From: Rhizophagus irregularis
Lineage: Eukaryota > Glomeromycota > Glomeromycetes > Glomerales > Glomeraceae
Assembly (NCBI RefSeq): GCF_026210795.1
Contig: NC_089440.1
Span: forward strand, 2,480,001-2,544,000
Direction of reading: 5' to 3'
DNA: 64,000 nucleotides
A program made the translations under genes and the position numbers. The number at the start of each line of letters is the position of its first letter. The first letter of the stretch is position 1. Positions 3,321 through 27,824 of the stretch are shown here, in pieces. Below the pieces are notes generated by a model that saw nothing but the letters and a program-made list of their open reading frames with translations, was not told the origin of the DNA and did no database searches.

Positions 3321-5161
3321 TTTGCATAGTAAAAGAATAAACCTACCACTATTCGATTCGTTTCAATGAGACGAATCTAACAAGTTATGGTATATCTTTA
3401 TACAATTATTAGATGTCAAGTTATTTAATATATTTTTTATATAATTGTGATTATAAACGGTTCTTTTTAATATAAAATTTTTGAGGATAAGTGTGATAGA
3501 TTTTAATAATAAAGTGTTTTGAACATTCAACTAGTGTGACTATATAGTAAAATGTGACTATAATAGAAGTAACTATTTATTTAAATATATTTGAATTTTA
3601 TTTTATATTTAAAATATATTAAAAATATACTGAAATGGAAAATAAATATAAATTAAATGTAATTTAGATATATATTAATTATAATTTAAGTTAACTTTTA
3701 GTATATTTTAATATAAAATAAGTATATTTAAAATTTTACAGTTAAAAAAAAAAATCAGATAAAAAAATTAAAAGAAATATTCAAAATGTAGTTAAAATAT
3801 TTATTTGTGATGAACTTGCTTTAAAAATTATAAAAAAAAAGGATATAGGTGAAATAATAAGTATAATGTACTCATTCAATAAAATTATATTAAAAGAAAA
3901 CAAGAGTTAAATATGATTTATTATAATAAATAAAGAAAAGATAATTATATTGCATTTAATAAATATAGAAATTGAAGCATAGCGGGCTTTCTTATTTATC
4001 ACATTAATTTGCCGATCATTTTCCGATTTTATCACATGATATAAAATGCCGTTACAAGACATTGCATAAAATTCTACATATTAATATGACCTCAAATATT
4101 GCAAATAAATTTATTGCACTCTAAATTTTAATCATACAAAGTTTTATTCAAATTGAATTATTATTGACCGATTTTTGCAAGTAGTAACTTTTGATTTAAT
4201 GCATTTTACATAATTTTTTAATATAAATGACTGGCAGATTCAAAAACTCACATAATAATTGTACTTTAAATCTTGCAAACTAATAAATATTAATAAAATA
4301 TATTTGCAAAAAAAATTTTATTAGAATCTGAAATAAATTCAAGAATTTTAATATGTACCTTTCATATAAATTAAAAATCCATTATAATTCCTGTTGCAAA
4401 ATCATAGATAACTTAACATATATGCATGCTAGAAAAATGAATTTATATTTATTTGAAAGGAGAGAATGAGATCTATCCAAAAAGTTAAAAATCGCATTGA
4501 TTGAATTATTGGTTCCTTAATAAATACGCTCAACACATTTACTATCAATTTGACATAAACTCTTGCATTTGAATGTAAATATCTCCTTATCTAATAATTC
4601 AATTTGCATGATTTTTGATTCCAAAATTAGAGCCCATTTACACCTTTCAAAGGAATATAAAATTATTCATTTAGCATATGTATATGTTGATAAATTAACA
4701 ATAATGTCATTACAATCAAAACCTGACACAAAATTTAAATTATATTTCTTACCAATAATTGTAGCCATAAAACTCCTTTCACTTTATTTAAAGGATGTTG
4801 TTTAAGCTTTTAATAGAATATACTGATGAAATTCATAAGTCAACTTCTAAAAAGAGAAAGAAATAATTAGTTTATTAATAAAGGAAAAAAAAATTCTAAA
4901 AATCCTATCTGATCCTTTAAATGGTAAGGAGTTCTATCAATAAAGAATTTTTTTGACACTAAACTTATTTAAAACTTTATAACTTACACTTAAGAAGAAC
5001 CTGGAGTGTCAAAATATATCTTTAATTCCAACTATTTTTTGTCAAAAATTCTTTGTAAAGCCAAATAATATAAACGTACTATACTTATTTTCATTTTATA
5101 AGAAGGTTTCAAGTGTTTATAACTTCTGGATTTCACCTCCAATAGCCAGATTCCTTTATAA
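3321..5161. other. AT-rich spacer, no gene seen
   Basis: Very A/T-rich sequence with frequent stops in all frames. The only open frame of note (80 codons near 4563) has no recognisable motif and reads like chance. I see no RNA gene and no clear repeat structure. Confidence 0.6.
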
Positions 5162-6542: not shown

Positions 6543-6935
6543 CAGTCGACTCTGGTTATAACAAACTCGTTTGTACCGAAACCTTATTATACTGAATCAT
6601 AATTTTCAGAACTGATTTTTTATAAATAATTTCACTGGATATAACGAACTTTTATAATAAAACACTATATAATGCATCTGAATCAAACTTAACCAGCCCC
6701 TATATATAATAACTTTAAACTTTCTATAACGAACGGTCATGTAACTATATAGTAGTCCAGGCCAATTTTATAGTGCTGGCTAGAATTACTAGTAATTTTT
6801 TCAAAAATTTATGTTAAAAGAAATTATAATTTTAGCCAGCATTACAAATTTGGCCTAAATTACCTATAAAGAAAACTAGTTCGGTATATTATATAATGAA
6901 TTTACTATATACCGAACTAAATCTCCTGGAACAGA
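6543..6935. mobile_element. left part of a pogo-like MITE split by the LINE nest
   Basis: It begins CAGTCGACTCTGGTTATAAC after a TA at 6541-6542. Its partner end is found 19 kb away at 25977-26005 (...TTATATCCAGAGTTGACTG followed by TA). The two pieces together would make one MITE of roughly 420 bp, close in size to the one at 5164-5565. The left piece contains GGCC(A/T)AATT motifs also seen in other MITEs here. The LINE nest therefore inserted into this MITE. Confidence 0.75.
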
Positions 6936-7207
6936 CACTGGTCAAAAACCAGGCAAACATGGCATAGTAGCCTTTATCTTTATTAAATTTATTCGAACTT
7001 TACAATTTACAAAAATAAAAAGAAAAATATAAAAATAAAACTAACTAAAAACAAAGCTATATAGTCTCCTAAGAAAAAATAAAGTAAAAAAATTAATCTA
7101 AAAAAAGAAAAATCGCATTACACTAAATTTCCCCAGATCTTCCCCCTTGATATATTTCAAACAAAGTAGAAGCAACTATGCTAACAAAATAACGAATAGC
7201 GCGCCCA

Positions 7208-10200
7208 CTATAAAAATCGACACTCCATCCTGCAAAAGCTATTATTAAGTAGCACCGTTAGACGACCCATAAAACCCGAAAAGTGATTAAACCAAGGCAA
7301 ACCATATTTCATCGAGTTCTTCAACCAATCGGTTCCAGAGTCACGTGAATCGTGTAGGGTCGGAGGTGGTAAAGATGAGTAAGGTATGTACGTTGACAAA
7401 GGCAAATTAGAAGGCATCGGAGTAGTTTTCATCTTGTAGGTAATATTCATCGCGTTTTCCCATCTACTTTTATCATAAGAACGCGGATTCCAAATTCGTC
7501 GTCTGAATTTTTGAACAAAATTATTGTGAATAGCAGCGATAACCTTAATCGCAGAGTTCCTTGGGATGGATAAATCGACAAATAAGTCAATAAAGAGTTT
7601 AGGCAAACAACCACGGACGAAGGGCATAGGAGGACCAATTAGTAGAAGAAAAGGACCAGCATGAAAGAGAGGTAAGTTTAGCGATAAGTGGAGTAGGGTC
7701 AATATCAGCCATGTTTCCAGCTTCCAGAAGTTTAGAAAGCAAATGATTTTGATAAGATTGAAGAATCTGTTGCATAGGTAGATGACGATTTTTGCACATA
7801 AAAAGGTGCATCAGGTCTTCCATGCGGTCGATACAAGAACGGCAAGTTAATTCGTCCATGTATAAATCTGGTCGAGTCCGTTTCAGCTTTTCCAAAGTAG
7901 GCAAATCATCCAAGAAAAGTTTGAATTTAAAGGTTAAGTGTCTTGATGCGTGGTCAGGAGTAAAAGATGCATCATGAGAGGGCTTGAAATTTAAAGTAAA
8001 CCAAGTAAGTTCCCAGTCAATAATATAATCTATATTAGATGTCAATAAAGAAGTAAAGTGAAAACGCGTTAAATTTAACAAATCACACATTAACTGCGTT
8101 TGGTAATATAGTTTGAGAAGGTGTCGCGGATTAGATTCACAAACAACATCGTTATCATAGACTAAGACAAAATCATGAGCAGAGGCCAGGTCCATTCCAG
8201 AGATCAGAATACTAGATGACGCGGTATGAGCAGTATTGGCCAAGGAATCAGCAAAATCGTTTAAATAATTGCCAGAGTGAGCTTTAACTTTAACAGGAAA
8301 AACTGTCAGATTTTTGGAAAGGATGGTTCGCTCAATAATCGCCCAAAGCTCAAAATTTGTAGTTTTGTAGTACAGACGACTGTTTGAGTAGACAAAAGAA
8401 GAACAACTTCGAAGGTCATCAATGGCAGTTTGCGAGTCAGTATAAATAGTAACTTCTGAGTCGCGTGGAGAAATAGTTAAAACTGCATATATAGCAGCAG
8501 CCTCAGCTCGAGAAGAAGAGGGATTATCTCGTATAAGGCCGTGAGCATAAGTGGCGATGGAGTTGGGAAAACCTGCATCAGGGACTATTTGCATTCAAGA
8601 CCAGCCCATAGAGACATTGGGAGTGCCTAAATTAATAAGAGACCCATCAGTGAAAAGGTATAGCGCGAATCCGAGGAAACGACCAACGGGGAATTTGCAA
8701 AGACAGCAGCAGCCGAGGATTCAATTGTGACAGGAGTATTAGAGACTATAGCGGTATTTGCAGAAGAAGAATCGGAATCAAAATCCAATCTACTATAATA
8801 AAGACGGACACCATCTTCTATATCAGCCCAGGTAAAAGGTGAAGCCACTTCAGAAGTAGTACGTCTAATTCTTTCATTGGTAGTGGGCAAAATAAGCGAA
8901 TGTTGTAGAGAGACCGTAGGCGTACAAAGGGTTAAATCAGCATTCCGTTTTTTAGAAGGAGGCAAAGGAGTATGAGCAGCGCAACCAGGGCAAGGAGAGA
9001 GTCTAATAAGATCACTAGGCGAAGATTCACAATCAGGAGAAATCCAGTGAACAATAGAACAAGTACCACGACTTGTTTGGACCAAGAGTTGTTTGCCAAA
9101 GATGGGAGAACCATAATCGTCCAACGTGACAATCCAATTTTTTGTAGTAGGAGGAGAGGATGAACAGGGAGCCAATTCATAAGATGAAGAGACAATCTTG
9201 GGCGTAATAATGAAATGATCCAGCAGACGATTGTTGGAGTCAGAAATAGTGGTAACTTGTTGAATATCTTTGTACCAATAAGGGATACGGCCAGGGCCAC
9301 GTCGTCCAACCAAATTGTCATAATAAGCCTTCCAAGAAATTAAATGAGTTCCTTGAGGAGTAACAAGCTGAGATAAATAAAACAGTTGTCGTTTCCGCAA
9401 AATGGGGAAATAAGCTTTAAAGGCTTTAGGCGTCATGCATTCGAATAAAGGAACACATCCATCTGGTAGAGATAAATTCGGAAGCTTCGAAAGTTGAGTA
9501 TGAAGCAAACGAAAGGGAGTAGAAGTTAGAAGAGCAATAGTGCATGCGATATAATCTTTCTTAAAAGAAAATAAAGAAGACCATATAGACCAGTCCTTAA
9601 TTAATAAAGGAGAAATAGGAATCAAAAAATTATATTGAATTAAACACAATCTGTAAATAAAAAGAGATTGAATAAAAGAAGAAGAAGAATTAGCCATTAA
9701 AAATAAATTAGTAATATGACATTGTCGTTGATGAGCGAACAAATTAATCAAGCCCAAAGCTTGGGACAAAAATAGAATGGGGTTGGGTAAAGAACGAGAA
9801 AAGTTCGCTTTGTGCTTTACAACAGATCGTATACTTCTCGTTATTAGGTGGCATTCAGATTCAGACAAGTGGGTAACTTGCATCCGATATTCAAGTTTTG
9901 GTACAAGAACAGCATTATATAAATACACGACTTGTTTAGAAGAGAGCTTTGCGGGTCGGATGGTCGCAGCAAAGGAGCAGCATTCGCGGTTGAGTTGCTT
10001 CTTGATAAAATCACGGGAGCTCTTAATGTTAAACCAAACACCTAAAAAACGAAAAGAAGTTGTCATGGAAATTGGGGTAATAGTAATGGAAGGAACACTA
10101 TTTAAAGAGGATAAATCCAAATTAAAAGTGATAGGGGATAAAGTGGAATTCGGAGTCAAAGGCAACGAATTAGTGATTAACACATATTTGTTATGATTGG

Positions 10201-12834
10201 CAGAAGTGTTATTGATCTGATAAAATTCTTCAGTAATGGATAACATAAATTCCATGCCAGCTTTTGACGAGGAAATAAGAGTAGAGTCATCCATAAATAC
10301 TAAATTATTAATCTTCAAATCAAGAGAAGGACTTGAAGAATCAATTAAAGACGGTGTAGAAAGAACATAAGGGTCCATCATCTCATTCTTCAGAATAGTA
10401 AGTAAGGGATCAATATAAATGACCCATAAAAGAGGAGAAATAACTTCGCCTTGGTCAATACCAATGCGAACCCTATAGGCAGGCGTAGATCCATGAGCAG
10501 TGAAAACGCGATTAGTGCGTTTTATAAAAAGTGAAAGGATAAACTTAACAGCGAAGGCTGGAAGACGTATACGTTCTAAAGCGAAACGTAACATCGTTAG
10601 ATCAACTGAATCAAAAGCTTTAGAAATATCTTGGGAAAGAATCCAAAGTGGGTTTTTGTTGATATCAGCATCATGGATAATAGATTCTAAAGTAATAATA
10701 GGGTCGCGGCAAGAACCTCCAGGAAGACCAGCGAAGTTACCACCTTTAAGGACATCATGTGAAGCCATAATGGTAGAAAGGCGATTATAAAAAAGTTTGA
10801 CAAGAGATTTCCTAATCACTTCAAGTAGGGTAATAGGCCGAGTATTTTTTAATTGACACTTTCATTCGTGAGGTTTGGGGATGGGAAAAACCATTGCTTG
10901 TCGCCATAAGTCAGGAATATCAGCTTTGGAAAGGCATGCTTGAATTAAAATGAGGAGTAAAGCCGAGGTACGAGATCCGAGATGTTTGAGCATTTCATAG
11001 GTAATCATGGAAGGACCAGAGGCTTTACCGTTAGGAGTGGAAGAAACGGTGGATAACCATTCATCAAAGGTAGGGGGATTCATTAAAGAATCATAGATGG
11101 AGGAGGACACATCATCCATAGGTTGATAGGCAGAAGACCATCTATCAGGTAGTGTATCAATAGATACAGGAGGAGTGGACTTTATAGGTACAAAATTTTG
11201 GAAATAGTTAACAACAGCATCATCTATGTCCTTAGGATCAGTTAACAACTGAGGTTGAGTAGGATGGTCGATGAAGACACGGTCCAAAGTGATACGGCGA
11301 CAGGTGCGAGAAAGCGCTGAATCAATAAAGGAGGAAAGGTCAGTTTCAAAATTATTATTCCTATCGTCCAAGTGAGCACGGATGGAGGAGTCTTGGAATT
11401 CTTTTTCTTGAAGTAAATGAAATCCCCGTAAGGATTTTGAAATATGGGAGAAATCATCAAGAAGTGACTTGAAATTGTCTTGTCGACATGATGAAAGAGA
11501 AGAGGGCAAAGTAGGAATGAAAGTAAAGACTTTTTTGTATAATTGAAGAATGTTTTGAAGTCTATGCAAATGTATAGACCACTTATGTTCATGAGCAACA
11601 GAATAAGTTAAAGGATATTTGCGCAATAAACGTATCAAATGCATTAGACGATTTAAAAACCGATAATGTTGAGTTAAAATTTTGAGATCTTTAGGGACCT
11701 TAGGAGTGTAATTGTTGCCAACAATAGAAGAAGGTAAAGTAGCATTGGCAGCTTTGAGGATTCGTGATTGAAGATATTCGCACATTTGGTTGATATGCCA
11801 GGAGGAAAAGGTTGAAGGTGAAACATCACATAAAGCATCAGCTTTGTCAGCGAATTCCGTCCATTGAGTATCAGTTACAGAATCAAATTTGAAGACGCGA
11901 CGGGTTTGGCGCTTAAGTTGACGAGCGCGAGCCAATTTGGTAGAGGCAAAAAGTAAAGACATATCATAATATGTGATGACAGGGTTATGATCAGATGTGC
12001 AGATGTCTTGAGCATTAAAAATACAAGCAGTAAGAGCAAATCCTTTGAGAAGAGGGCAGGACCATACATAATCAACACGAGTAATGTGGTCATTGCGATG
12101 AAAGGTACCTAAAGAGTCGGAAAGATTAATAGGTGTAAAATCTTCATAACCATGAAAAAGGAGATGAAAAAGTAGTCGATGTATATGTTTTGAAGCAATT
12201 TGGGGTTGATTAAAATAAATAGGATAATATTTATCTAAATGCATATTAAAATCGCCACAAACAGCATGATAAAAACCAGCTTGTTTAGTAAGAATAAGTT
12301 GTTGAATAAGCAAATCAATAGTGTCAGTGCGCAAAATACTTTCAGCAGGGGGAGGGATATAAATAACAAATATACGCAATTTAACATTGCCTTTGAAATA
12401 TAAATCAACAGAAAGCAGTCGTGAAGAATGGGATTTAAAATCTTGTACATGTGAAACAAGAGAATTTTCTATAAGAAGGGAAACACCACCAGAAGAAAGA
12501 ATTTGTTTAGAAGTATCCAAATTCGAGGAAAACACAGTATAATTAGAAAGACGTTTGGATAAAAACTTCATTTGTTTAGGGTGGAGATGAGTATCAACGA
12601 TACCACCAAAGGAAATATGTTTTAAGGAGAAAAAAGAAGAAATTTCTTCTAATTTAGTCTGACCATACATTTTAAGGCCATTAACATTGAAGGAGGAAAT
12701 ATTAAATGAGTTGGGGATAGGAGAAGTGTTACTAGAAGAAGAAAATAAGGATTCATGTGATAAATTTCAGTAACATTATCAGGGTTGGGAGGGTTTCGTA
12801 CAAAGGTATCATAATTAAAATTATTGTCCGACAT
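7208..12834 (-). pseudogene. LINE copy A ORF2 (endonuclease-RT-RNase H), broken
   Basis: This is a broken ORF2 in the order AP endonuclease, reverse transcriptase, RNase H, CCHC finger. Visible motifs are FNVNGLKMYGQ-like endonuclease start, CGDFNMHL, DYVWSC and TSDHNPV; RT motifs SKAFDSVDL, IGIDQGEVISPLLW and FMDDSTL; RNase H YTDSQTAID and FADSLANTAH; and finger CRSC-x8-H-x3-C. The start ATG at 12832-12834 (MSDNNFNYD) matches copy C. Lesions seen: a one-base loss near 12768, a TGA in place of TGG at 10862-10864, a one-base loss near 8660, a TGA in place of TGG at 8595-8597, and a one-base gain near 7620. The enzyme would copy LINE RNA at a nicked chromosomal target, but this copy cannot make it whole. 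Confidence 0.9.
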
Positions 12835-12884
12835 TAAAACACGATGATAAAAACAGTCGGGGAGTTAAAATTTGAAGAAGAAAA

Positions 12885-15007
12885 TTAAACAGAAGAAGCT
12901 GAATCAGCTTGTTCCAGGGGAGCACCACCAATGGAGCTAATGAATTGCTTGATATGACCAGTGAGTTGGTCCAATTTACTTTCAATAACGACTCTACTAT
13001 TTTTGAGATCGTTAATTTCTTCTTGCGTGGAGGAGATAGGGGTAAAAGAAGGAGCATTTGGGGAAAGGTGAGAAGGAGGGGGCGACGTGTTAGGAACAAG
13101 AATAGTAGGAGATGGAGGTCGCGTTAAAATACTTCTGGGGGTAAAGGAGATTTAGCGGAAGGCTGAATAATAAGCGGAACATGGGATACAGGAGCATCTT
13201 CTTGCATGAGATCCAAGTCAGGTTCATTAGGTGTAGAAAGCGGATCAAGGCCAAGGTGTGATTCAATACGAGTCATCCTTTGGTCAGCAAGTTCAAGAGC
13301 GGAAATGCGTTTGTGAAAATTAGCGACTTCGCATTGCAATTCACGTAAGAGATTTAAAATATTATTAGCATCATCAGAAGATAATGCAGAATTAGGAGTT
13401 TGTCAGGGCAAGGGACGTGCGGTAGAACGAAAAGAGGAAGAAAAAGAAACCGATCGTTCTTTACTATTATGCCGAGCACGTTGGGAGGTATTGGGATTGT
13501 GTATGTTATGATTATTAACATTATTATTGCGGTCATGAGAACTGTTATTAGCACGTCCGGAATCATGAGTAGATCGATCTTTGGATTTTGAGCGAGATCG
13601 GGAGCGAGAACGTGTATTAGCAGCATTAGAATTAGAGCGGCGAGGTTGATTGACATTAAATCGTTCTTTGAGTTTTGCTACAGGGTCGCGAGTGCGACTT
13701 CTACCTCTGGTTTGTTTTAGTGGGCAAAAATTTGGAGCGCAACCTAATTTGCCACATCTGTGACAAAGTTTATTGGTATTATCTGGGGAGGACCAGAAAA
13801 GCACTTTGCCTTGGAAGCTGACAGTCTGTTCCATAGCAGCATCCATAGTTTCTTGGGAGTTGAAGATGACGTAAGCCCATCTTTTGGGTTTGTAAGAATT
13901 TAAAGAAAGTGGAACATTGACAGCCTTAGCGCCAAGGTTACGGGTAAGAGGAGCCAAGTTGATATCCTTAACATTGGGGGGAAGTTGAGTGAGGGTGGCA
14001 ACGTATTGACGGCGCGCAGCCTTTTGATCCACAGTATAGAAACACAGAGTAATTCTGAGGCAGGTGGAGAAACAGTACACGGCCCATTGGTCGGTAAAAC
14101 GAGCAATTGAATCGGTGTGATCATACACAATGCGGGCTTGCTGGACTTTGGCATTAGGCCTGGAGAAGAGGCGGCAAGAGGTGATATTACCAAATTTTTT
14201 AAAATAAGCCATGAGGTTGTCTTTTTTAATGAAGAAAGGGATATCGATAACTTGGATAGCCCAGAGATCTTCATTAGATCGGAGTTGGTGAGGGTCATAT
14301 GCATGAAAGATTAAGTCAGAAGATTCAGGATGAGTGGAACCAACGCACAAATCGCGTGCTTCAGCGGTATGGAAGTGGATAACGAGGCGTTTGGCTTCAC
14401 CAGAGCCAGTCATACGTGCTTTTCCAGTAAACGACTCGTAAGTTTCTAAAAAAAGGTTATTAACAGCCTCAATAAGGGCTTTATTGGTAGGGAATTTCTT
14501 AAGAGATTTAGGGGCAGCATTCGGCGCAGCCGCAGCCTGAAAATCATCTCTGGTTATGGCGAGGGTCACCACTTGATCTGGAGTTTGATCGTCATCTGGA
14601 GCACCATTGGTATCCAAATTGGGTGACGCGTTAGGGGGTTGTTGCAAGTCTTTGTTCGAAGGTGCATGCATGGAGTCGTCCACATTTCCAGAAGACGCGA
14701 CGGGACTGGGCGCAGTTGGCGCAGCAGATTTTTTCGAGAAGGAGGTCAAAGTATTTTCGCCAGAGATATTTTGTTGAGGAGAAGAGGAAGGTCCATCTAC
14801 TCCAACGTCAGCCGTCTGGTCATCGGCAACGTAGTCTTCTTCCATAGAATTTTCGGTAATCGTACGATTACGTTTCTGCTGGACAGTGTTTTCACCATCA
14901 GAGCTTGAGTTATCGGAGTTATTATTATTTTTTCGTTCTTGACGGGAAGCTTTCCTACTGTTAGGGTTATGACTTCCACGGCCTCTCTTGGCATAGTTAC
15001 CAGACAT
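12885..15007 (-). pseudogene. LINE copy A ORF1 (gag-like), broken
   Basis: Starts MSGNYAKRGRG as in copy C and is read over most of its length: an acidic/Asn-rich N-terminus, a central RNA-binding-like part, a zinc knuckle CHRCGKLGCAPNFC, and an RS-rich stretch. A TGA at 13403-13405 replaces the CGA of copy C. A frameshift near 13130 breaks the C-terminal coiled-coil part. The original stop is at 12885-12887. It lies 50 nt upstream of ORF2, as in copy C. Confidence 0.85.
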
Positions 15008-15134
15008 AGTAGAGGGCTTTGAGTTGGGAATATATAAAATATAAAATTTTATTAGTAGCTTGTATTATTTTTAAAAATAATAAAAAATATTTTTCGTCGG
15101 AAATTTTCGTTTTTGAAAAATTCAGGAGAGAGTT

Positions 15135-17476
15135 ACTGGTCAAAAACCAGGCAAACGTGGCATAGTAGCCTTTATCTTTATTAAAATTATTCGAACTTTA
15201 CAATTTACAAAAAAAAATAAAAAGAAAATATAAAAATAAAACTAACTAAAAACAAAGCTATATAGTCTCCTAAGAAAAAATAAAGTAAAAAATTAATCTA
15301 AAAAAAGAAAAATCGCATTACACTAAATTTCCCCAGATCTTCCCCCTTGATATATTCCAACCAAAGTAGAAGCAACTATGCTAACAAAATAACGAATAGC
15401 GCGCCCACTATAGAAATCGACACTCCATCCTGCAAAAGCTGTTATTAAGTAGCACCGTTAGACGATCCATAAAACCCGAAAAGTGATTAAACCAAGGCAA
15501 ACCATATTTCATCGAGTTCATCAACCAATCGGTTCCGGAGTCACGTGAATCGTGTAGGGTCGGAGGTGGTAAAGATGAGTAAGGTATGTACGTTGACAAT
15601 GGCAAATTAGAAGGCTTCAGAGTAGTTTTCAACTTATAAGTAATATTCATCGCGTTTTCCCATCTACTTTTCTCATAAGAACGCGGATTCCAAATTCGTT
15701 TTCTGAATTTTTGGACAAAATTATTATGAATAGCAGCGATAACCTTAATCGCAGAGATTCTTGGAATAGACAAATCGACTAAGATGTCAATAAAAAGTGT
15801 AGGTAAACAACCACGGACAAGGGCGTATGAAGACCAATTTGTAGAAGAAAAGGACCAGCATGAAAGAGAAGTGAGTTTAGCAATAAAGGGAGTAGGATCA
15901 ATATTAGCCAATTTTCCAGCTTCTTGAATTTTAGAAATCAAATGATTTTGATAAGATTGGAGAATTTGTTGCATAGGTAGACGACGTTTTTTGCACATAA
16001 AAAGGTGCATCAGGTCTTCCATGCGATCGATACAAGAACGGCAAGTTAATTCGTCCATGTATAAGTCTGGTCGAGTCCGCTTAAGCTTTTCCAATGTGGG
16101 TAAGTCGTCCAAGAAAAGTTTGAATTTGAAGGTTAAGTGTCTTGAAGCATGCTTTCAAGAGTAAAAGATGCATCAGTAGAAGGCTTGAAATTCAAGGTAA
16201 ACCAGGTAAGTTCCCAGTCGACAATATATTCTATATTAGATAATAATAAAGAAATAAAGTGAAATCGCGTTAAATTTAACAAATCACGCATTAACTGCGT
16301 TTGATAATACTGTTTAAGAAGGTGTCGTGGATTAGATTCACAAACGGCGTCATTGTCGTAAGTCAAGACGAAATCATGGGCAGAAGCAAGGTCCATTCCA
16401 GAAATCAAAATACTGGATGATGCGGTATGGGCAGTATTGGCCAAGGAGTCAGCAAAATCGTTCAAATAATTGCCAGAATGAGCTTTAACTTTAACAGGAA
16501 GCACTGTCAAATTCTTGGTAAGGATAGTTCGTTCAATAATGGCCCAAAGCTCAAAATTTGTTGTTTTGTAGTAAAGACGGCTATTTGAGTAGACATAGGA
16601 AGAGCAACTTCGAAGGCCATCAATGGCAGTTTGCGAGTCAGTATAAATAGTAACTTCTGAGTCGCGAGGAGAAATGGTTAAAACTGCGTAAATAGCGGCA
16701 GCTTCAGCACGAGAAGAAGAAGGATTATCTCGAATGATGCCATGTGCATAAGTAGCAATGGAATTAGGAAAACCAGCATCAGGTACGATTTGCATCCAAG
16801 ACCAGCCCATAGAAACATTAGGAGTGCCTAGATTAATAAGAGACCCATCAGTGAAAAAGATATAACGTGAGTCTGAAGACACAACCAACGGCGAATTTGC
16901 AAAAACAGCAGCAGCTGAGGATTCAATAGTGATAAGAGGAGCGGAGACTTCAACAATATCGTCAAGAGGAGAGTCAAAATCAAAATCCAATCGACTGTAA
17001 TAAAGACGGACACCATCTTCTATATCAGCCCAGGTAAAAGGGGAGGATACTATAGAAGTATTACGTCTAATGCGCTCATTGATGGTGGGCAGAATAAGCG
17101 AATGTTGTAGAGAAACCGTAGGCGTACAAAGGGTTAAATCAGCATTCCGTTTTTTGGAAGGAGGCAAAGGAGTATGAGCAGCACAACCAGGGCAAGGAGA
17201 GAGTCTAATGAGATCACCAGGCGAAGATTCACAATCAGGAGAGACCCAGTGAACAATAGAACAAGTACCACGACTTGCTTGAACTAAAAGTTGTTTGCCA
17301 AAGATGGGAGAACCGTAGTCGTCTAACGTGACAATCCAATTTTTCGTAGTGGTAGGAGAGGACAGGCAAGGAGTCAATTCATAAAATGAAGAGTCAATCG
17401 TAGGCGTAGTAATGAACTGGGTCAGCAAACGATTGTTGGTGTCAGGAATGGTAGTAGCTTGCTGGATATCTTTATA
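15135..17476 (-). mobile_element. LINE copy B, 5'-truncated
   Basis: Minus-strand copy of the same LINE family, keeping only the last part of ORF2 and the 3' tail. The 3' end (ACTGGTCAAAAACCAGG at 15135, complement sense) touches the 5' end of copy A. The 5' truncation point is at about 17476, inside the ORF2 linker between RT and RNase H (TATAAAGATATCC), where the palindrome begins. 5' truncation is usual for LINE insertions by target-primed reverse transcription. Confidence 0.85.
15408..17476 (-). pseudogene. LINE copy B ORF2 C-terminal fragment
   Basis: The frame starts at YKDIQQATT, runs through the RNase H domain (YTDSQTAID, HSGNYLNDFADSLANTAH) and ends with the CRSC...H...C finger and the family's final residues CRMECRFL. 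A two-base gain near 16140 shifts the frame between RNase H and the finger. It is closer in sequence to copy C than to copy A over many segments, for example IYTDSQTAIDGLRS. Confidence 0.85.
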
Positions 17477-17477
17477 C

Positions 17478-17770
17478 ACTGGTCAAAAACCAATATATCG
17501 GGTAGCAGATATGTATCAGATATGTACCCGATATGTGTAGTATTAATGCAGAAAATCGGGTACCCGATATGTGTAAGATATATGTAAATATATATATCAT
17601 ATACATATCGGGTACCGATATGTATATGATATGTAAATGATATGTAGACGATATATATATTTACACATATCTTACACATATCGGGTACCCGATTTTCTGC
17701 ATTAATACTACACATATCAGGTACATATCTGATACATATCTGCTACCCGATATATTGGTTTTCGACCAGT
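17478..17770. repeat. 293-bp imperfect palindrome between LINE copies B and C
   Basis: The left end ACTGGTCAAAAACCAATATA and the right end TATATTGGTTTTCGACCAGT are inverted copies, and the pairing continues through nearly the whole length. The arms contain repeated CGGGTACCCG and ACATAT/ATATGT units. The right arm carries about 21 extra bases near 17640-17660, so the axis is displaced to about 17613. There is no coding capacity. It could be a MITE or a product of head-to-head recombination. Its tips equal the 3' tips of the neighbouring LINEs. Confidence 0.85.
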
Positions 17771-17911
17771 AGTAGTAGTAGTAACTCTCTCCTGAATTTT
17801 TCAAAAAACGAAATTTTCGACGAAAATAATTTTTTATTATTTTTAAAAAATAATACAAACTACTAATAAAAATTTTATATTTTATATATTCCCAACTCAA
17901 AGCCCTCTACT

Positions 17912-20035
17912 ATGTCTGGTAACTATGCCAAGAGAGGCCGTGGAAGTCATAACCCTAACAGTAGGAAAGCTTCCCGTCAAGAACGAAAAAATAATAACAA
18001 CTCCGATAATTCAAGCTCCGATGGTAAAAACACTATCCAGCAGAAACGTAATCGTACGATTACCGAAAATTCTATGGAAGAAGACTACGTTGCCGATGAC
18101 CAGACGGCTGACGTTGGAGTAGATGGACCTTCCTCTTCTCCTCAACAAAATATCTCTGGCGAAAATACTTTGGCCTCCTCCCCGAATAAATCTGCTGCGC
18201 CAACTGCGCCCAGTCACGTCGCGTCTTCTGGACATGTGGACGCGTCCATGCATGCACCTTCAAACAAAGACTTGCAACTACCCCCTAACGCGTCACCCAA
18301 TTTGGATACTAATGGTGCTCCTGATGGCGATCAAACCCCAGATCCAGTGGTGACCTTTGCCATAACCAGAGATGATTTTCAGGCTGCGGCTGCGCCGAAT
18401 GCTGCCCCTGAATCACTCAAGAAATTCCCTACCAATAAAGCCCTTATTGAGGCTGTGAATAACCTTTTCTTAGAAACGTACGAGTCATTCACTGGAAAAG
18501 CTCGTATGACAGGTTCTGGTGAGGCTAAACGCCTCATTATCCACTTCCATACCGCTGAAGCACGCGATCTGTGCGTTGGTTCCTCTCATTCTGAGTTCCC
18601 TGACTTGATTTTTCATGCCCATGACCCTCGCCAACTCCGATCCAATGAAGATCTCCGGGCTATCCAAGTTACCGATATCCCTTTCTTTATCAAAAAGGAC
18701 AACCTCATGGCCTATTTCAAAAAATTTGGTAATATTACCTCTTGTCGCCTCTTCTCCAGGCCTAATGCTAAAGTCCAGCAAGCCCGTATTGTGTATGATC
18801 ACGCCGATTCAATTGCTCGTTTTACCGACCAATGGGCTGTTTACTGTTTCTCCACCTGTCTCCGAATTACTCCATGTTTCTATACTGTGGATCAAAAGGC
18901 TGCGCGCCGTCAATACGTTGCCACCCTCACTCAACTTCCTCCCAATGTTAAGGATATCAACTTGGCTCCTCTTACACGCGATCTTGGTGCAAAAGCTGTC
19001 AATGTTCCTCTTTCTTTAAATTCCTACAAACCCAAAAGATGGGCCTATGTCACCTTCAACTCCCAAGAAACCATGGATGCTGCTATGGAACAGACTGTTA
19101 GCTTCCAAGGCAAAATACTTTTCTGGTCCTCCCCCGATAATACTAATAAACTTTGTCACAGATGTGGCAAACTAGGTTGTGCTCCTAATTTTTGCCCACT
19201 CAAACAAACCAGAGGTAGAAGCCGCACTCGCGACCCTGTTGCAAAACTCAAAGAACGATTCAATGTTAATCAACCTCGCTCCAATTCTAATATTGCCAAT
19301 GCACGTTTTCGCTCTCGATCTCGCTCCAAATCTAAAGATCGATCTGCTTCCAATTCTGGACGAGCCAATAACGCTTCCCATGACCGCACTAATAATGATA
19401 ATAGTAATCATAACAAACCCCCTCCCAATACTTCTCAACGTGCCCGCCACAATAGTAAAGAACGATCTGTCTCCTTTTCTTCCTCCTCTCGTTCTACTGC
19501 ACGTCCCTTACCCCGACAAACTCCTAACTCTGCATTATCTTCTGATGATGCTAACAACATTCTAAACCTTTTACGAGAATTACAATGTGAAGTTGCTAAC
19601 TTTCACAAACGCATCTCCGCTCTTGAACTTGCTGACCAACGGATGACTCGTATTGAATCACACCTTGGCCTTGATCCACTCCCTCTACCCAATGAACCTG
19701 AACCGGACCTCATGCAAGAAGATGCCCCTGTAACTCATGTTCTTCTTAATATTCTGTCTTCCGCTAAATCTTCGCTGCCTTCCAAAAGTATTTTAACGCG
19801 ACCTTCGCCTACATTCACTATTGTTCCTGACACATCACCTCCTTCTTCTCACCTTTCTCCCAATGCTCCTCCTTTTACTCCCATCTCCTCCACACAAGAA
19901 GAAATTAATGATCTCAAAAATAGTCGTGTCGCTATTGAAAGTAAATTGGACCAACTTACTGGTCATATCAAGCAATTCATTGGCTCCCTTGGTGGTGCTC
20001 CCCTGGAACAAGCTGATTCAGCTTCTTCCAATTAA
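17912..20035 (+). CDS. LINE copy C ORF1, gag-like RNA-binding protein (707 aa)
   Basis: Intact frame starting MSGNYAKRGRG, a start shared with copy A. The first ~150 residues are rich in Asn, Ser and Pro. The middle contains RRM-like pieces (DIPFFIKKDNLMAYFKKFG near residue 255). Near residue 410 lies a zinc knuckle CHRCGKLGCAPNFC, a CX2CX4CX4C variant with Cys where His is usual. An RS-rich region follows (RSRSRSKSKDRS), then two likely coiled coils, around LLRELQCEVANFHKRISALE and QEEINDLKNSRVAIESKLDQ. LINE ORF1 proteins bind the element's RNA and form the RNP with ORF2. The stop is 50 nt before ORF2, so ORF2 would need internal initiation or reinitiation. Confidence 0.88.
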   Translation: MSGNYAKRGRGSHNPNSRKASRQERKNNNNSDNSSSDGKNTIQQKRNRTITENSMEEDYVADDQTADVGVDGPSSSPQQNISGENTLASSPNKSAAPTAPSHVASSGHVDASMHAPSNKDLQLPPNASPNLDTNGAPDGDQTPDPVVTFAITRDDFQAAAAPNAAPESLKKFPTNKALIEAVNNLFLETYESFTGKARMTGSGEAKRLIIHFHTAEARDLCVGSSHSEFPDLIFHAHDPRQLRSNEDLRAIQVTDIPFFIKKDNLMAYFKKFGNITSCRLFSRPNAKVQQARIVYDHADSIARFTDQWAVYCFSTCLRITPCFYTVDQKAARRQYVATLTQLPPNVKDINLAPLTRDLGAKAVNVPLSLNSYKPKRWAYVTFNSQETMDAAMEQTVSFQGKILFWSSPDNTNKLCHRCGKLGCAPNFCPLKQTRGRSRTRDPVAKLKERFNVNQPRSNSNIANARFRSRSRSKSKDRSASNSGRANNASHDRTNNDNSNHNKPPPNTSQRARHNSKERSVSFSSSSRSTARPLPRQTPNSALSSDDANNILNLLRELQCEVANFHKRISALELADQRMTRIESHLGLDPLPLPNEPEPDLMQEDAPVTHVLLNILSSAKSSLPSKSILTRPSPTFTIVPDTSPPSSHLSPNAPPFTPISSTQEEINDLKNSRVAIESKLDQLTGHIKQFIGSLGGAPLEQADSASSN

Positions 20036-20085
20036 TTTCTTTCTTCAAATTTTAACTCCCCGACTGTTTATATCATTGTGTTTTA

Positions 20086-23000
20086 ATGTCGGACAATAAT
20101 TTTAATTATGATACCTTTGTACGAAACCCTCCCAACCCCTGACAATGTTACTGAAATTTTTTCGCATGAATCGTTATTTTCCTCTTCCAGTAACACTTCC
20201 CCTATCCCCAATTCATTTAATATTTCTTCCTTTAATGTTAATGGCCTTAAAATGTATGGTCAGACTAAATTAGAAGAAATTTCTACTTTCTTTTCCTTAA
20301 AACGTATTTCCTTTGGTGGTATCGTGGATACCCATCTTCACCCTAAACAAATGAAGTTTTTATCCAAACGTATTTCTAATTATACTGTGTTCTCTTCTAA
20401 TTTGGATACTTCTAAACAAATTCTCTCTTCTGGTGGTGTTTCTCTTTTTATAGAAAATTCCCTTGCTTCACATGTTCAGGATTTCAAATCCCATTCTTCA
20501 CGGTTACTTTCTGTTGATTTATATTTCAAAGGCAATATTAAATTGCGTATATTTGTTATTTATATCCCTCCCCCTGCTGAAAGTGTTCTGCGCACTGATA
20601 CTATTGATTTGCTCATTCAACAACTTACCCTTACTAAACATGCTGGATTTTACCATGCTGTTTGTGGCGATTTTAATATGCATTTAGACAAATATTACCC
20701 TATTTACTTCAATCAACCTCAAGTTGCTTCAAAACATATTCACCGATTATTTTTTCATCTCCTCTCTCACGGATATGAAGACTATACTCCTATTAATCTT
20801 TCCGACTCCTTAGGTACCTTTCATCGCAATGATCACATTACTCGAGTTGATTATGTATGGTCCTGCCCTCTTCTCAAAGGATTTGCTCTTACTGCTTGCA
20901 TTTTTAATGCTCAAGATGTTTGCACATCTGATCATAACCCCGTCATAACATACTATGATATGTCTTTACTTTTTGCCTCTACCAAATTGGCTCGCGCTCG
21001 ACAACTTAAGCGCCGAACCCGTCGCGTCTTCAAATTTGATTCTGTAACTGAAATTCAATGGACGGAATTTGCTGATAAAGCTGATGCTTTATGTGACGTC
21101 TCACCTTCAACCCTTTCCTCCTGGCATATCAATCAAATGTGCGAATATCTCCAATCACGAATTCTTAAAGCTGCCAACGCTACACTACCTTCTTCCACTG
21201 TTGGCAATAATTATACTCCTAAGGTTTCTAAAGATCTGGAAATTTTAACCCAACATTATCGGTTTTTAAATCGCCTTATGCATTCAATACGTTTATTGCG
21301 CAAATATCCTTTAACTTATTCTGCCGCTCATGAACATAAGTGGTCTATTCATTTAATCAGACTTCAAAACATTTTGCAATTATATAAGAAAGTATTTACT
21401 TTCGTTCCTACTTTGCCCTCTTCTCTCTCATCAGGTCGACAAGATGATTTCAAGTCACTTCTTGATGATTTATCCAATATTTCAAAATCCTTACGGGGAT
21501 TTCATTTACTTCAAGAAAAAGAATTCCAAGATTCCTCCATTCGTGCTCATTTGGACGATAGGAACAATAATTTTGAAACTGACCTTTCCTCTTTCATTGA
21601 TTCAGCGTTTCTCGCACCCGCCGCCGTATCACTTTGGATCGTGTCTTTGTTGATCATCCCACTCACCCTCAGTTATTAACTGCTCCCAAGGATATAGACG
21701 ATGCTGTTGTTAACCATTTCCAAAACTTTGTACCTATAAAATCCACTCCTCCTGTATCTGTAGATACATTACCTGATAGATGGTCTTCTGTTTACCAACC
21801 TATGGATGATGTGCCCTCCTCCATCTATGATTCTTTAATGAATCCCCCTACCCTTGACGAATGGTTAACCACCGTTTCTTCTACTCCTAACGGTAAAGCC
21901 TCAGGTCCTTCCATGATCACTTATGAAATGCTCAAACACCTTGGATCTCGTTCCTCGGCTCTACTCCTTATTTTAATTCAAGCTTGCCTTTCCAAAGCTG
22001 ATATTCCTGACTTATGGCGACAGGCAATGGTTTTTCCCATTCCCAAACCTCACGAATGGAAATGTCAATTGAAAAATACTCGTCCTATTACTTTACTTGA
22101 AGTGATTAGAAAATCTCTTGTCAAACTCTTTTATAATCGCCTTTCTACTATTATGGCTACACATGATGTTCTTAAAGGTGGTAACTTCGCTGGTCTTCCT
22201 GGTGGTTCTTGCCGCGACCCCATTATTACTCTAGAATCTATTATCCATGATGCTGATGTCAACAAAAACCCACTTTGGATTCTCTCTCAAGACATTTCTA
22301 AAGCTTTTGACTCGGTTGATTTGACAATGTTACGTTTTGCTTTAGAACGAATACGTCTCCCAGCTTCTGCTATTAAGTTTATTCTTTCCCTTTTCACAAA
22401 ACGCATTAATAGCGTTTTCACTGCTCATGGATCCACGCCTGCTTATAGAGTTCGCATTGGTATTGACCAAGGCGAAGTTATTTCTCCTCTCTTATGGGTT
22501 ATTTATATTGATCCCTTACTTACTGTCTTGAAGCATGAAATGATGGACCCTTATGTTCTTTCTACACCATCCTTAATTGATTCTCCCAATCCTTCTTCCG
22601 ATTTGAAGATTAATAATTTAGTATTTATGGATGACTCTACTCTTATTTCCTCGTCGAAGACTGGCATGGAATTTATGTTATCCATTACAGAAGAATTCTA
22701 TCAAATTAATAACACTTCTGCCAATCATAACAAATATGTGTTAATTACTAATTCGTTGCCTTTGACTTCGAATTCCATTTTATCTCCTATTACTTTTAAC
22801 TTAGATTTATCCTCATTAAATAGTGTTCCTTCCATTACCATTATCCCAATTTCTATGACAACTTCTTTTCATTTTTTAGGTGTTTGGTTTAACATTAAAA
22901 GCTCCCGGGATTTTGTCAAGAAACAACTCAAACGTGAATGCTGCTCCTTCGCTGCAACCATCCGCCCTGCAAAGCTCTCATCCAAACAAGTTGTTTATTT

Positions 23001-25701
23001 ACATAATGCTGTCCTTATACCGAAACTTGAATACCGGATGCAAGTTACTCACTTGTCTGAATCTGACTGCCACCTAATAACGAGATCTGTTGTAAAGCAC
23101 AAAGCAAATTTTTCTCGCTCTTTACCAAATCCCATTTTATTTTTATCTCAAGCCTTGGGCTTGATAAATTTATTTGCTCATCAACGACAATGTCATATTA
23201 CTAATTTATTTTTAATGGCTAATTCTTCCTTTTCTTTTATTCAATCTCTTTTTATTTATAGATTGAGTTTGATTCAATATAATTTTTTAATTCCTATTTC
23301 TCCCCTTTTAATTAAGGATTGGTCTATATGGTCTTCTCTTTTTTCTTTTAAGAAAGATTATATCGCATGCACTATTGCTCTCTTATCCTCTACTCCTTTT
23401 CGTTTGCTTTATACTCAACTTTCGAAGCTTCCGAACCTGACTTTGATGGATGGACGCGTTCCTTTATTTGAATGCATGACACCTAAAGCGTTTAAAGCCT
23501 ATTTCCCTATTTTGCGAAAACGGCATTTGTTTTATCTATCTCAGCTTGTTACTCCCCAAGGGACTCATTTAATTTCTTGGAAAGCCTACTATGACAATTT
23601 GGTTGGACGACGTGGCCCTGGCTGTATCCCTTATTGGTATAAAGATATCCAGCAAGCTACTACCATTCCTGACACCAACAATCGTTTGCTGACCCAGTTC
23701 ATTACTACGCCTACGATTGACTCTTCATTTTATGAATTGACTCCTTGCCTGTCCTCTCCTACCACTACGAAAAATTGGATTGTTACGTTAGACGACTACG
23801 GTTCTCCCATCTTTGGCAAACAACTTTTAGTTCAAGCAAGTCGTGGTACTTGTTCTATTGTTCACTGGGTCTCTCCTGATTGTGAATCTTCGCCTGGTGA
23901 TCTCATTAGACTCTCTCCTTGCTCTGGTTGTGCTGCTCATACTCCTTTGCCTCCTTCCAAAAAACGGAATGCTGATTTAACCCTTTGTACGCCTACGGTT
24001 TCTCTACAACATTCGCTTATTCTGCCCACCATCAATGAGCGCATTACACGTAATACTTCTGCAGTATCCTCTCCTTTTACCTGGGCTGATATCGAAGATG
24101 GTGTCCGTCTTTATTACAGTCATTTGGATTTTGATTTTGACTCTCCTCCTGATGATATTGTTGAAGTTTCCGCTCCTCTTATCACTATTGAATCCTCAGC
24201 TGCTGCTGTTTTTGCAAATTCGCCATTGGTTGTGTCTTCAGACTCACGTTATATCTTTTTCACTGATGGGTCTCTTATTAATCTAGGCACTCCTAATGTT
24301 TCTATGGGCTGGTCTTGGATGCAAATCGTACCTGATGCTGGTTTTCCTAATTCCATTGCTACTTATGCACATGGCATCATTCGAGATAATCCTTCTTCTC
24401 GTGCTGAAGCTGCCGCTATTTACGCAGTTTTAACCCTTTCTCCTCGCGACTCAGAAGTTACTATTTATACTGACTCGCAAACTGCCATTGATGGCCTTCG
24501 AAGTTGCTCTTCCTATGTCTACTCAAATAGCCGTCTTTACTACAAAACAACAAATTTTGAGCTTTGGGCCATTATTGAACGAACTATCCTTACCAAGAAT
24601 TTGACAGCGCTTCCTGTTAAAGTTAAAGCTCATTCTGGCAATTATTTGAACGATTTTGCTGACTCCCTGGCCAATACTGCCCATACCGCATCATCCAGTA
24701 TTTTGATTTCTGGAATGGACCTTGCTTCTGCCCATGATTTCGTCTTGACTTACGACAATGACGCCGTTTGTGAATCTAATTCACGACACCTTCTTAAACA
24801 GTATTATCAAACGCAGTTAATGCGTGATTTGTTAAATTTAACGTGATTTCACTTTATTTCTTTATTATTATCTAATATAGAATATATTGTCAACTGGGAA
24901 CTTACTTGGTTTACCTTGAATTTCAAGCCTTCTCATGATGCATCTTTTACTCTTGAGCATGCTTCAAGACACTTAACCTTTAAATTCAAACTTTTCTTGG
25001 ACGACTTACCCACATTGGAAAAGCTTAAGCGGACTCGACCAGACTTATACATGGACGAATTAACTTGCCGTTCTTGTATCGATCGCATGGAAGACCTGAT
25101 GCACCTTTTTATGTGCAAAAAACGTCGTCTACCTATGCAACAAATTCTCCAATCTTATCAAAATCATTTGATTTCTAAAATTCAAGAAGCTGGAAAATTG
25201 TCTGATATTGATCCTACTCCCTTTATTGCTAAACTCACTTCTCTTTCATGCTGGTCCTTTTCTTCTACAAATTGGTCCTCTTACGCCCTTGTCCGTGGTT
25301 GTTTACCTACACTTTTTATTGACATCTTAGTCGATTTGTCTATTCCAAGAATCTCTGCGATTAAGGTTATCGCTGCTATTCATAATAATTTTGTCCAAAA
25401 ATTCAGAAGACGAATTTGGAATCCGCGTTCTTATGAGAAAAGTAGATGGGAAAACGCGATGAATATTACTTATAAGTTGAAAACTACTCCGAAGCCTTCT
25501 AATTTGCCATTGTCAACGTACATACCTTACTCATCTTTACCACCTCTGACCCTACACGATTCACGTGACTCCAGAACCGATTGGTTGAAGAACTCGATGA
25601 AATATGGTTTGCCTTGGTTTAATCACTTTTCGGGTTTTATGGGTCGTCTAACGGTGCTACTTAATAACAGCTTTTGCAGGATGGAGTGTCGATTTCTATA
25701 G
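20086..25701 (+). pseudogene. LINE copy C ORF2 (APE endonuclease, RT, RNase H, CCHC), three lesions
   Basis: ORF2 begins ATG at 20086 (MSDNNFNYD) and ends TAG at 25701. Endonuclease motifs: FNVNGLK, GGIVDTHLH, CGDFNMH, RVDYVWS, TSDHNPV. RT motifs: SKAFDSVDL (A), IDQGEVISPLLW (B), FMDDST (C) near 22630. RNase H: FTDGSL, SSRAEAAAIY, YTDSQTAID, FADSLANTAH. Finger: CRSC-x8-H-x3-C near 25070-25120. Three lesions break it: an extra C near 20137, a missing base near 21608, and a TGA at 24844-24846 where copies A and B have CGN. The order of domains fits Tad1- or I-like LINEs known in fungi. The protein nicks target DNA and primes cDNA synthesis from the LINE RNA. Confidence 0.9.
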
Positions 25702-25976
25702 TGGGCGCGCTATTCATTATTTTGTTAGCATAGTTGCTTCTACTTTGGTTGGAATATATCAAGGGGGAAGATCTGGGGAAATTTAGTGTAATGCGATTTT
25801 TCTTTTTTTTAGATTAATTTTTTTTACTTTATTTTTTCTTAGGAGACTATATAGCTTTGTTTTTAGTTGGTTTTATTTTCATATTTTCTTTTTATTTTTT
25901 TGTAAATTGTAAAGTTCGAATAAATTTAATAAAGATAAAGGCTACTATGCCACGTTTGCCTGGTTTTTGACCAGTG
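25702..25976 (+). other. LINE copy C 3' tail and polyadenylation signal
   Basis: The T-rich tail contains AATAAA twice (near 25919 and 25929), then GATAAAGGCTACTATGCC and the closing GCCTGGTTTTTGACCAGTG. The last 16 bases can fold as CTGG-TTTTTGA-CCAG. The same tail is present in copies A (6936-7207) and B (15135-15407). There is no poly(A) run at the end, so the family does not terminate in a simple A tail. Confidence 0.75.
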
Positions 25977-26005
25977 AGAGGGTTCGTTATATCCAGAGTT
26001 GACTG
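25977..26005. mobile_element. right end of the split pogo-like MITE
   Basis: GTTCGTTATATCCAGAGTTGACTG followed by TA at 26006-26007 is the inverted partner of CAGTCGACTCTGGTTATAAC at 6543. An AGA is found on both sides of the LINE nest (6933-6935 and 25977-25979). It could be a 3-bp duplication or chance. Confidence 0.7.
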
Positions 26006-26913: not shown

Positions 26914-27824
26914 ATAATACTACTAATTGTTTAACTTTTAAAGTTTTATATTTTTTATTTAATAACTTTAGAGTGTAATTTCACTACTTTAGTCAAATGA
27001 AATCAATTTCTTTTATTAATTAAAAGTTGTTCAACAGAACCAAAACTACTTGTATATTATTTTTTATAAGTGTAGGTACAATACATATAAAGAAACCCAT
27101 ATTTTTCATAATAGTACTAACTTTCAAAATTATTTTTTCATTTATTAACTTCAGAGCATAATTTTACTACTTTAATCAAATGAAATTGACTTTCTAAATT
27201 AATTGATAATTGTTCAGTAAGGTCAAAACTACGTGTATATTAATTTTCATGGGTGTAGGTATAATATATATGGAGAAACTAACATTTTTCATAATGGTAC
27301 TAACTTTTAAATTTTTCTTTTTTCTGTTTACTAACTTTAGAGTGTAATTTTACCACTTTATTCAAATGAAATCGACTTTCTAAATTAATTAGCAATTGTT
27401 CAGCAAAGTCGAAACTACTTGTATATTAATTTTTATGGATGTAGGTATAATACATATGGAAAAATTACATTTTTCATAATGGTACTAACTTTTAAATTTT
27501 TTTTCAGTTTATTGACTTCAGCGCGTAATTTCACCACTTTAGTCAAATGAAATCGACTTTCTAACTTAATTGAAAATTGTTCAGCAAGATCGAAACTACT
27601 TGTAAATTAATTTTCATAGGTGTAGGTATAATATATATGGAGAAATCTACGTTTTCATAATGGTACTAACTTTTGAATTTTTCTTTTTTTCATTTACCAA
27701 CTTTAGAGCATAATTTCACCACTTTAGTCAAATAAAATTTACTTTCTTTATTAATTGAAAGTTATTTAGCAGTATAAAATCTACTTAATACTTGTAAGAT
27801 TTATCCCATTTTTTATAATAATAC
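26914..27824. repeat. tandem array, about 183-bp unit, five copies
   Basis: The block ATAATGGTAC or a close variant starts at about 26914, 27108, 27291, 27476, 27657 and 27815, giving spacings of 194, 183, 185, 181 and 158. Each unit also carries TGTAGGTATAATA, a CACTTTAGTCAAATGAAAT segment and TTGTTCAGCAA. The last unit is shorter. The units have no open frame. This is a satellite-like array flanked by GGTGAATT-type inverted motifs on both sides. Confidence 0.8.

Follow-up and report, generated by a model that had tools for sequence, protein, structure and literature searches.

Why does a near-palindrome lying between head-to-head LINEs carry at both of its tips the sequence with which these LINEs end? 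The question is raised by a locus of Rhizophagus irregularis, a fungus from which L1-Tx1, R1 and I type LINEs as well as CMC/EnSpm elements have been reported (PMC11075540), and it was addressed here by computational analysis of a 64,000-nucleotide stretch of contig NC_089440.1 (positions 2,480,001 to 2,544,000; hereafter the window). The window is AT-rich, with 28% GC. The reading that we prefer, with a probability of roughly 80%, is that a LINE family specifically targets the final 15 bp of the terminal inverted repeat of a foldback MITE of the EnSpm/CACTA type. The features of the composite, in window coordinates, are as follows.

6933–6935, no strand: left 3-bp duplication AGA of the putative foldback MITE, read directly; equals 25977–25979
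6936–6951, minus: outer left copy of the transposon end, CACTGGTCAAAAACCA, 16/16 to 17477–17492; best read as the target duplicate at the 3' side of LINE A together with the MITE's terminal C
6952–15134, minus: LINE A, from AACTCTCTCC directly after GACCAGT; 90.6% identity to LINE C
15135–15149, minus: 15-mer between the 3' end of LINE B and the 5' end of LINE A, best read as their common duplication copy; 15/15 to the left palindrome tip and to the end of LINE A
15150–17477, minus: LINE B, 5'-truncated, 98.4% identity to LINE C; the truncation adjoins GACCAGT of the tip
17478–17770, no strand: putative foldback MITE, a near-perfect palindrome, both tips read as LINE target sites; with the outer C/G restored it would read CACTGGTC...GACCAGTG
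17771–17782, plus: (AGT)4 between the palindrome tip and the 5' end of LINE C, missing at the 5' junction of LINE A
17783–25960, plus: LINE C, with open reading frames in broken frames
17912–20035, plus: ORF1 of LINE C, with an RRM match
20108–21679, plus: putative endonuclease part of LINE C
21634–24846, plus: reverse transcriptase (RT) and RNase H of LINE C
24916–25701, plus: C-terminal part of LINE C
25961–25976, plus: outer right copy of the transposon end, TGGTTTTTGACCAGTG, 16/16 to 17477–17492 and 14/15 to the right tip; best read as the target duplicate at the 3' side of LINE C together with the MITE's terminal G
25977–25979, no strand: right 3-bp duplication AGA, read directly

A long palindrome with a LINE-free core

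The palindrome consists of two arms of 132 nt each (17478–17609 and 17639–17770), which are 96% complementary and are separated by a spacer of 29 nt. When 17477–17770 was folded as a single DNA strand, the energy was −136.3 kcal/mol in comparison with a mean of −29.1 for shuffled sequences, and none of 200 shuffles folded as well. A census of inverted repeats of at least 30 nt with arms no more than 150 nt apart returned 17 in the window, among which this palindrome was the longest; the next longest had 84-nt arms at 74%. Apart from the tip sequence, the core showed no similarity to the LINEs by blastn at E values of up to 10. The preliminary description, which had placed a near-palindrome at 17478–17770 with the 14-mer of the LINE 3' ends at its tips and had found its interior free of LINE similarity, was borne out on both points, with one mismatch in the right tip. 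No solo copy of the palindrome was found by blastn within the window, where the longest match outside the cluster measured 54 nt at 70%.

The shared sequence flanks each LINE on both sides

When two or fewer mismatches were allowed, ACTGGTCAAAAACC occurred five times in the window compared with 0.41 expected, and none of 100 shuffles reached five. Two of these matches lay at the tips of the palindrome, an exact one at 17478 and one with a single mismatch at 17757; the other three, all exact, were the 3' ends of LINEs A (6937), B (15135) and C (25962). The earlier claim that the three LINEs end in one and the same 14-mer therefore held, but the unit common to the palindrome tips and the LINE ends was found to be 15 nt long, TGGTTTTTGACCAGT, or 16 nt, CACTGGTCAAAAACCA, when one more, outer base is included, as the two outermost ends and position 17477 allow. 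Base 17477 itself can be assigned equally to LINE B or to the MITE.

The preliminary description did not mention that TGGTTTTTGACCAGT also adjoins the 5' ends of LINEs A, B and C. Read on the LINE strand, the order on the left is left palindrome tip, B, motif, A, motif, and that on the right is right palindrome tip, C, motif. The copies of the 15-mer that flank each LINE agree at 15/15 positions for B and A and at 14/15 for C (one C/T difference). GACCAGT adjoins the 5' junctions of all three LINEs, including that of the truncated LINE B, which begins in the LINE body at GTATAAAG, and each of these junctions lies 1 bp inside the CAC..GTG end. LINEs A and C begin at the identical LINE base, AACTCTCTCC, C being preceded by the additional (AGT)4. 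This (AGT)4 repeats the last three target bases.

Since the 15-mer flanks A, B and C on both sides, it most likely represents a target-site duplication rather than LINE 3' sequence. Target-site duplications of APE LINEs are described as 10–20 bp long (PMC6895275), and the 15-bp duplication falls within this range. After the motif, the ends of A and C show a G; at the end of B this G is missing and the 5' end of A comes next, as expected for a terminal base of the MITE with B lying within the element. GACCAGTG also occurs once within LINE A (12956), and no insertion is found there, suggesting that these 8 bp alone would not be a target. Of the two explanations offered in the preliminary description, capture of a MITE tip as the LINE 3' end is disfavored, given that the tip lies on both sides of each LINE, whereas recognition of the sequence as a target by the LINE machinery is supported by the duplication of the 15-mer around A, B and C.

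The LINEs represent two lineages inserted separately

Nucleotide identity was 98.4% between C and B, 90.6% between A and C, and 89.8% between A and B. The differences between A and C were mostly synonymous: in four pieces of the open reading frames, dN/dS was 0.16, 0.08, 0.10, and 0.12, with dS of 0.28–0.44. This mostly synonymous divergence, with dN/dS of 0.08–0.16, indicates that the A and C lineages diverged while replicating under selection and were inserted separately at the identical base. Between B and C, dN/dS was higher in two pieces (0.40 and 0.92), both values resting on few changes. A local duplication of one LINE into three is ruled out by the divergence of about 10% of A from both B and C and by the mostly synonymous nature of the A–C differences. 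CG in A faced TG or CA in C 53 times and the reverse was seen 40 times, which gives no age order for A and C; because CpG decay does not separate these two, it does not tell either whether A or B entered the left tip first.

In the Pfam analysis, ORF1 matched RRM (E 6.2e-9 for the whole protein, with no individual stretch significant alone), and ORF2 matched RT (RVT_1, E 2.4e-21) and RNase H. The RT is of the non-LTR type, as judged from RVT_1 together with PDB matches to LINE-1 ORF2 and R2 proteins. The endonuclease part matched Exo_endo_phos_2 at E 1.1e-4 with 22.4 bits, which is under the Pfam cut-off of 27.4, and showed no solved relative in PDB at E 0.1; it is probably an APE-type domain.

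The palindrome resembles a MITE of the EnSpm/CACTA type

Upon removal of the LINEs and the extra motif copies, the pre-LINE locus reads AGA, CACTGGTC...palindrome...GACCAGTG, AGA. Its outer ends are AGA followed by CACTGG and CCAGTG followed by AGA, the outermost C/G and the AGA lying at 6933–6936 and 25976–25979. CAC..GTG termini are thus present at the outer ends (CACTGGTC at 6936 and GACCAGTG at 25969–25976); in the palindrome as it now stands, LINE B shares the left C (17477), and LINE C has displaced the right G. AGA occurs on both outer sides as a 3-bp duplication. Such a match has a probability of about 4% by composition, so what gives it weight is that it falls together with the expected ends. 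For rust fungi, EnSpm families with 5'-CAC..GTG-3' ends and 3-bp duplications have been reported (PMC12730594).

The suggestion that the palindrome might be a MITE agrees with these CACTG..CAGTG ends and the AGA at both outer sides, and we infer that it is a non-autonomous foldback MITE, probably of the EnSpm/CACTA type. It shares CAC..GTG ends and a 3-bp duplication with EnSpm/CACTA elements and their MITEs as described (PMC12730594, PMC4158355). It differs in that its ends are CACTGG..CCAGTG, in comparison with CACTA..TAGTG in PMC4158355, and in that it is palindromic over almost its whole length, with no known autonomous partner. For a transposase, the open reading frame lists of the window were read by eye.

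Two further repeats lie close to the composite. At 6877–6919, 16 bp to its left, a short imperfect palindrome (TAGTTCGGTATA...TATACCGAACTA), in which 34 of 43 positions match its own reverse complement, is probably another small MITE. About 1 kb to the right, a tandem array with units of approximately 181–186 bp occupies 26917–27786.

LINE D, a distant relative, lacks the motif

A second LINE family is represented in the window by LINE D, which extends from before the tenth base of the window to approximately 3325 and carries an RNase H domain. Its amino acid identity was 28% to C (1035-column alignment) and 32% to A (534 columns). The 3' tail of D aligns with that of C as far as GTTTGC, with 4 of 2000 shuffles scoring equally high. 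At the 3' end of D the motif is missing and a different sequence comes next. That a similar tail occurs without the motif indicates that these LINEs do not generally end in it.

The sequence that follows D is homologous to an inverted-repeat family at 51.7–52.6 kb. Local alignments of the D flank started at 3325 and 3326 for the two best copies (scores 101 and 106), two weaker copies aligned from 3301 and 3319 onward (scores 79 and 73), and the homology detected by blastn started only at 3345. D, of which the 3' side lies within the window, may thus have inserted in another foldback repeat.

Evaluation of alternative explanations

It is improbable, in our estimation, that the 15-mer belongs to the 3' end of the LINE itself, with the palindrome as a passenger (SINE-like or foldback) that acquired this end and is moved by the LINE machinery. 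The motif is identical at 3/3 LINE 3' ends, as such a process would have it, and 3' hairpins can be recognized by LINE RTs; the LINE end, as RNA, does fold into a small hairpin in CUGGUUUUUGACCAG (25920–25975, comprising the duplicated target and the last bases of the LINE). However, 13 of 200 shuffles folded equally well, so that the hairpin may be due to chance, and the motif also stands before 3/3 LINE 5' ends and is absent from LINE D. Neither the outer CAC..GTG with AGA nor the insertion of LINE C in opposite orientation exactly at the other tip is explained by a LINE-owned end.

Guidance by structure appears to us quite improbable. Here a cruciform would be extruded from the palindrome and attacked by the LINE machinery at its basal four-way junction, and the sequence would be shared only incidentally, since the cruciform base always coincides with the tip. 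A four-way branched DNA intermediate has been described for LINE integration in vitro (PMC6895275), the 5' junctions of 3/3 insertions share their position 1 bp inside the CAC..GTG end, and D ends (3325) where the homology to the inverted repeat begins in its two best copies. Nevertheless, the earlier starts in the two lower-scoring copies and the later start by blastn blur this boundary, D lies within its repeat rather than at a tip and only its 3' side falls in the window, the stacking of A and B fits a sequence-only target equally well, and extrusion in vivo is itself an assumption. The idea that the arrangement arose by chance from ordinary nested LINE insertions and rearrangement, without any specificity, accords with a repeat-rich region, but it is barely credible in view of the identical junction base in 3/3 LINEs of the A/B/C family in the window, the separate lineages of A and C, and the absence of five motif copies from each of 100 shuffles.

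A model for insertion into the transposon ends

For target-specific insertion into the MITE tips, the main evidence is that 3/3 copies of the A/B/C family in the window, belonging to two lineages, sit at one target base, all at one locus. The occurrence of two separately replicating lineages at the identical base argues for sequence- or structure-specific targeting; the LINE machinery would probably read sequence rather than cruciform shape. LINE C occupies one tip, and the 5'-truncated B together with A occupies the other in opposite orientation. Entry of the LINEs into opposite tips in opposite orientation accounts for the head-to-head layout and the LINE-free interior.

The locus directly displays where the elements lie, how the target is duplicated, that AGA stands on both outer sides, and that A and C have separate ancestries. 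From this starting point, insertion may proceed as follows, with endonuclease specificity, cut positions, and strand order as predicted from the junctions. The LINE endonuclease would nick the strand 5'-CACTGGTCAAAAACCA/ATAT inside the tip, and the freed 3' end would prime reverse transcription at the end of the LINE RNA (...CACGTTTGCC). The second strand would be cut 15 nt away, at GACCAGT/G, and fill-in would then duplicate TGGTTTTTGACCAGT at both sides of the new LINE. The palindrome tips would offer two opposite copies of the target, so that LINEs could enter at either end, the 5' end pointing to the core and the 3' end outward. With every insertion, one target copy would be kept inside and another rebuilt outside, such that the site is renewed and transposon-like ends are retained. 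The stacking of B and A in one tip illustrates this renewal.

Relation to known systems and significance

The A/B/C family resembles the target-specific APE LINEs of the Tx1/R1 type in that it inserts at a single base within a repeat, makes a modest duplication, and combines an RT with a probable APE-type endonuclease, a likeness drawn from these features. It differs in that the target here is a terminal inverted repeat that is used from both ends. Tx1L of Xenopus laevis is reportedly specific for the Tx1D transposon and is said to lie inside Tx1D, not at its tips. Both cases would thus place a LINE at a fixed site of a DNA transposon; the difference is that here the tips are duplicated, which renews the target and leaves the composite with transposon ends. 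The known targets of specific LINEs include RNA genes, spliced-leader exons, transposons, microsatellites, and telomeric repeats (PMC4640811). Target-specific LINEs, some of them in transposons, are therefore already known, and what is new here is the use of terminal inverted repeats as the target, at both tips, and the restoration of the target and the transposon end upon insertion. Among the papers listed in a literature search of titles and abstract openings, mostly outside subscription, none described a LINE specific for EnSpm/CACTA or MITE terminal repeats.

Searches of contig collections were also performed. In viral contigs, the MITE tip gave 0 matches, the LINE 3' end gave one (L001), of which the 351 bases read look unrelated, and the RT protein gave one pattern match, which was not confirmed. 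In genome contigs, none of nine pattern matches to the RT protein was confirmed, and the MITE tip matched once, in a bacterial MAG (L002), of which 700 of 3666 bases were read; no stretch of 9 to 12 bases of the match had an inverted partner in the locus. The L001 and L002 matches were taken as chance, as judged without a computed expectation.

A LINE aimed at both ends of a MITE and duplicating the exact end would gain a landing site that is safe, multiplying, and self-renewing. The 15-bp site and the two predicted cut positions provide an endonuclease substrate that can readily be tested. A further step, that the LINE homes to transposon ends and rebuilds them so that the 19-kb composite (6936–25976) remains or becomes a substrate of EnSpm transposase, is a doubtful proposition. 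If it were true, a copy-and-paste element would be packaged for carriage by a cut-and-paste one, and its target would never be exhausted. The system would allow a direct test of whether retrotransposons can ride on DNA transposons.
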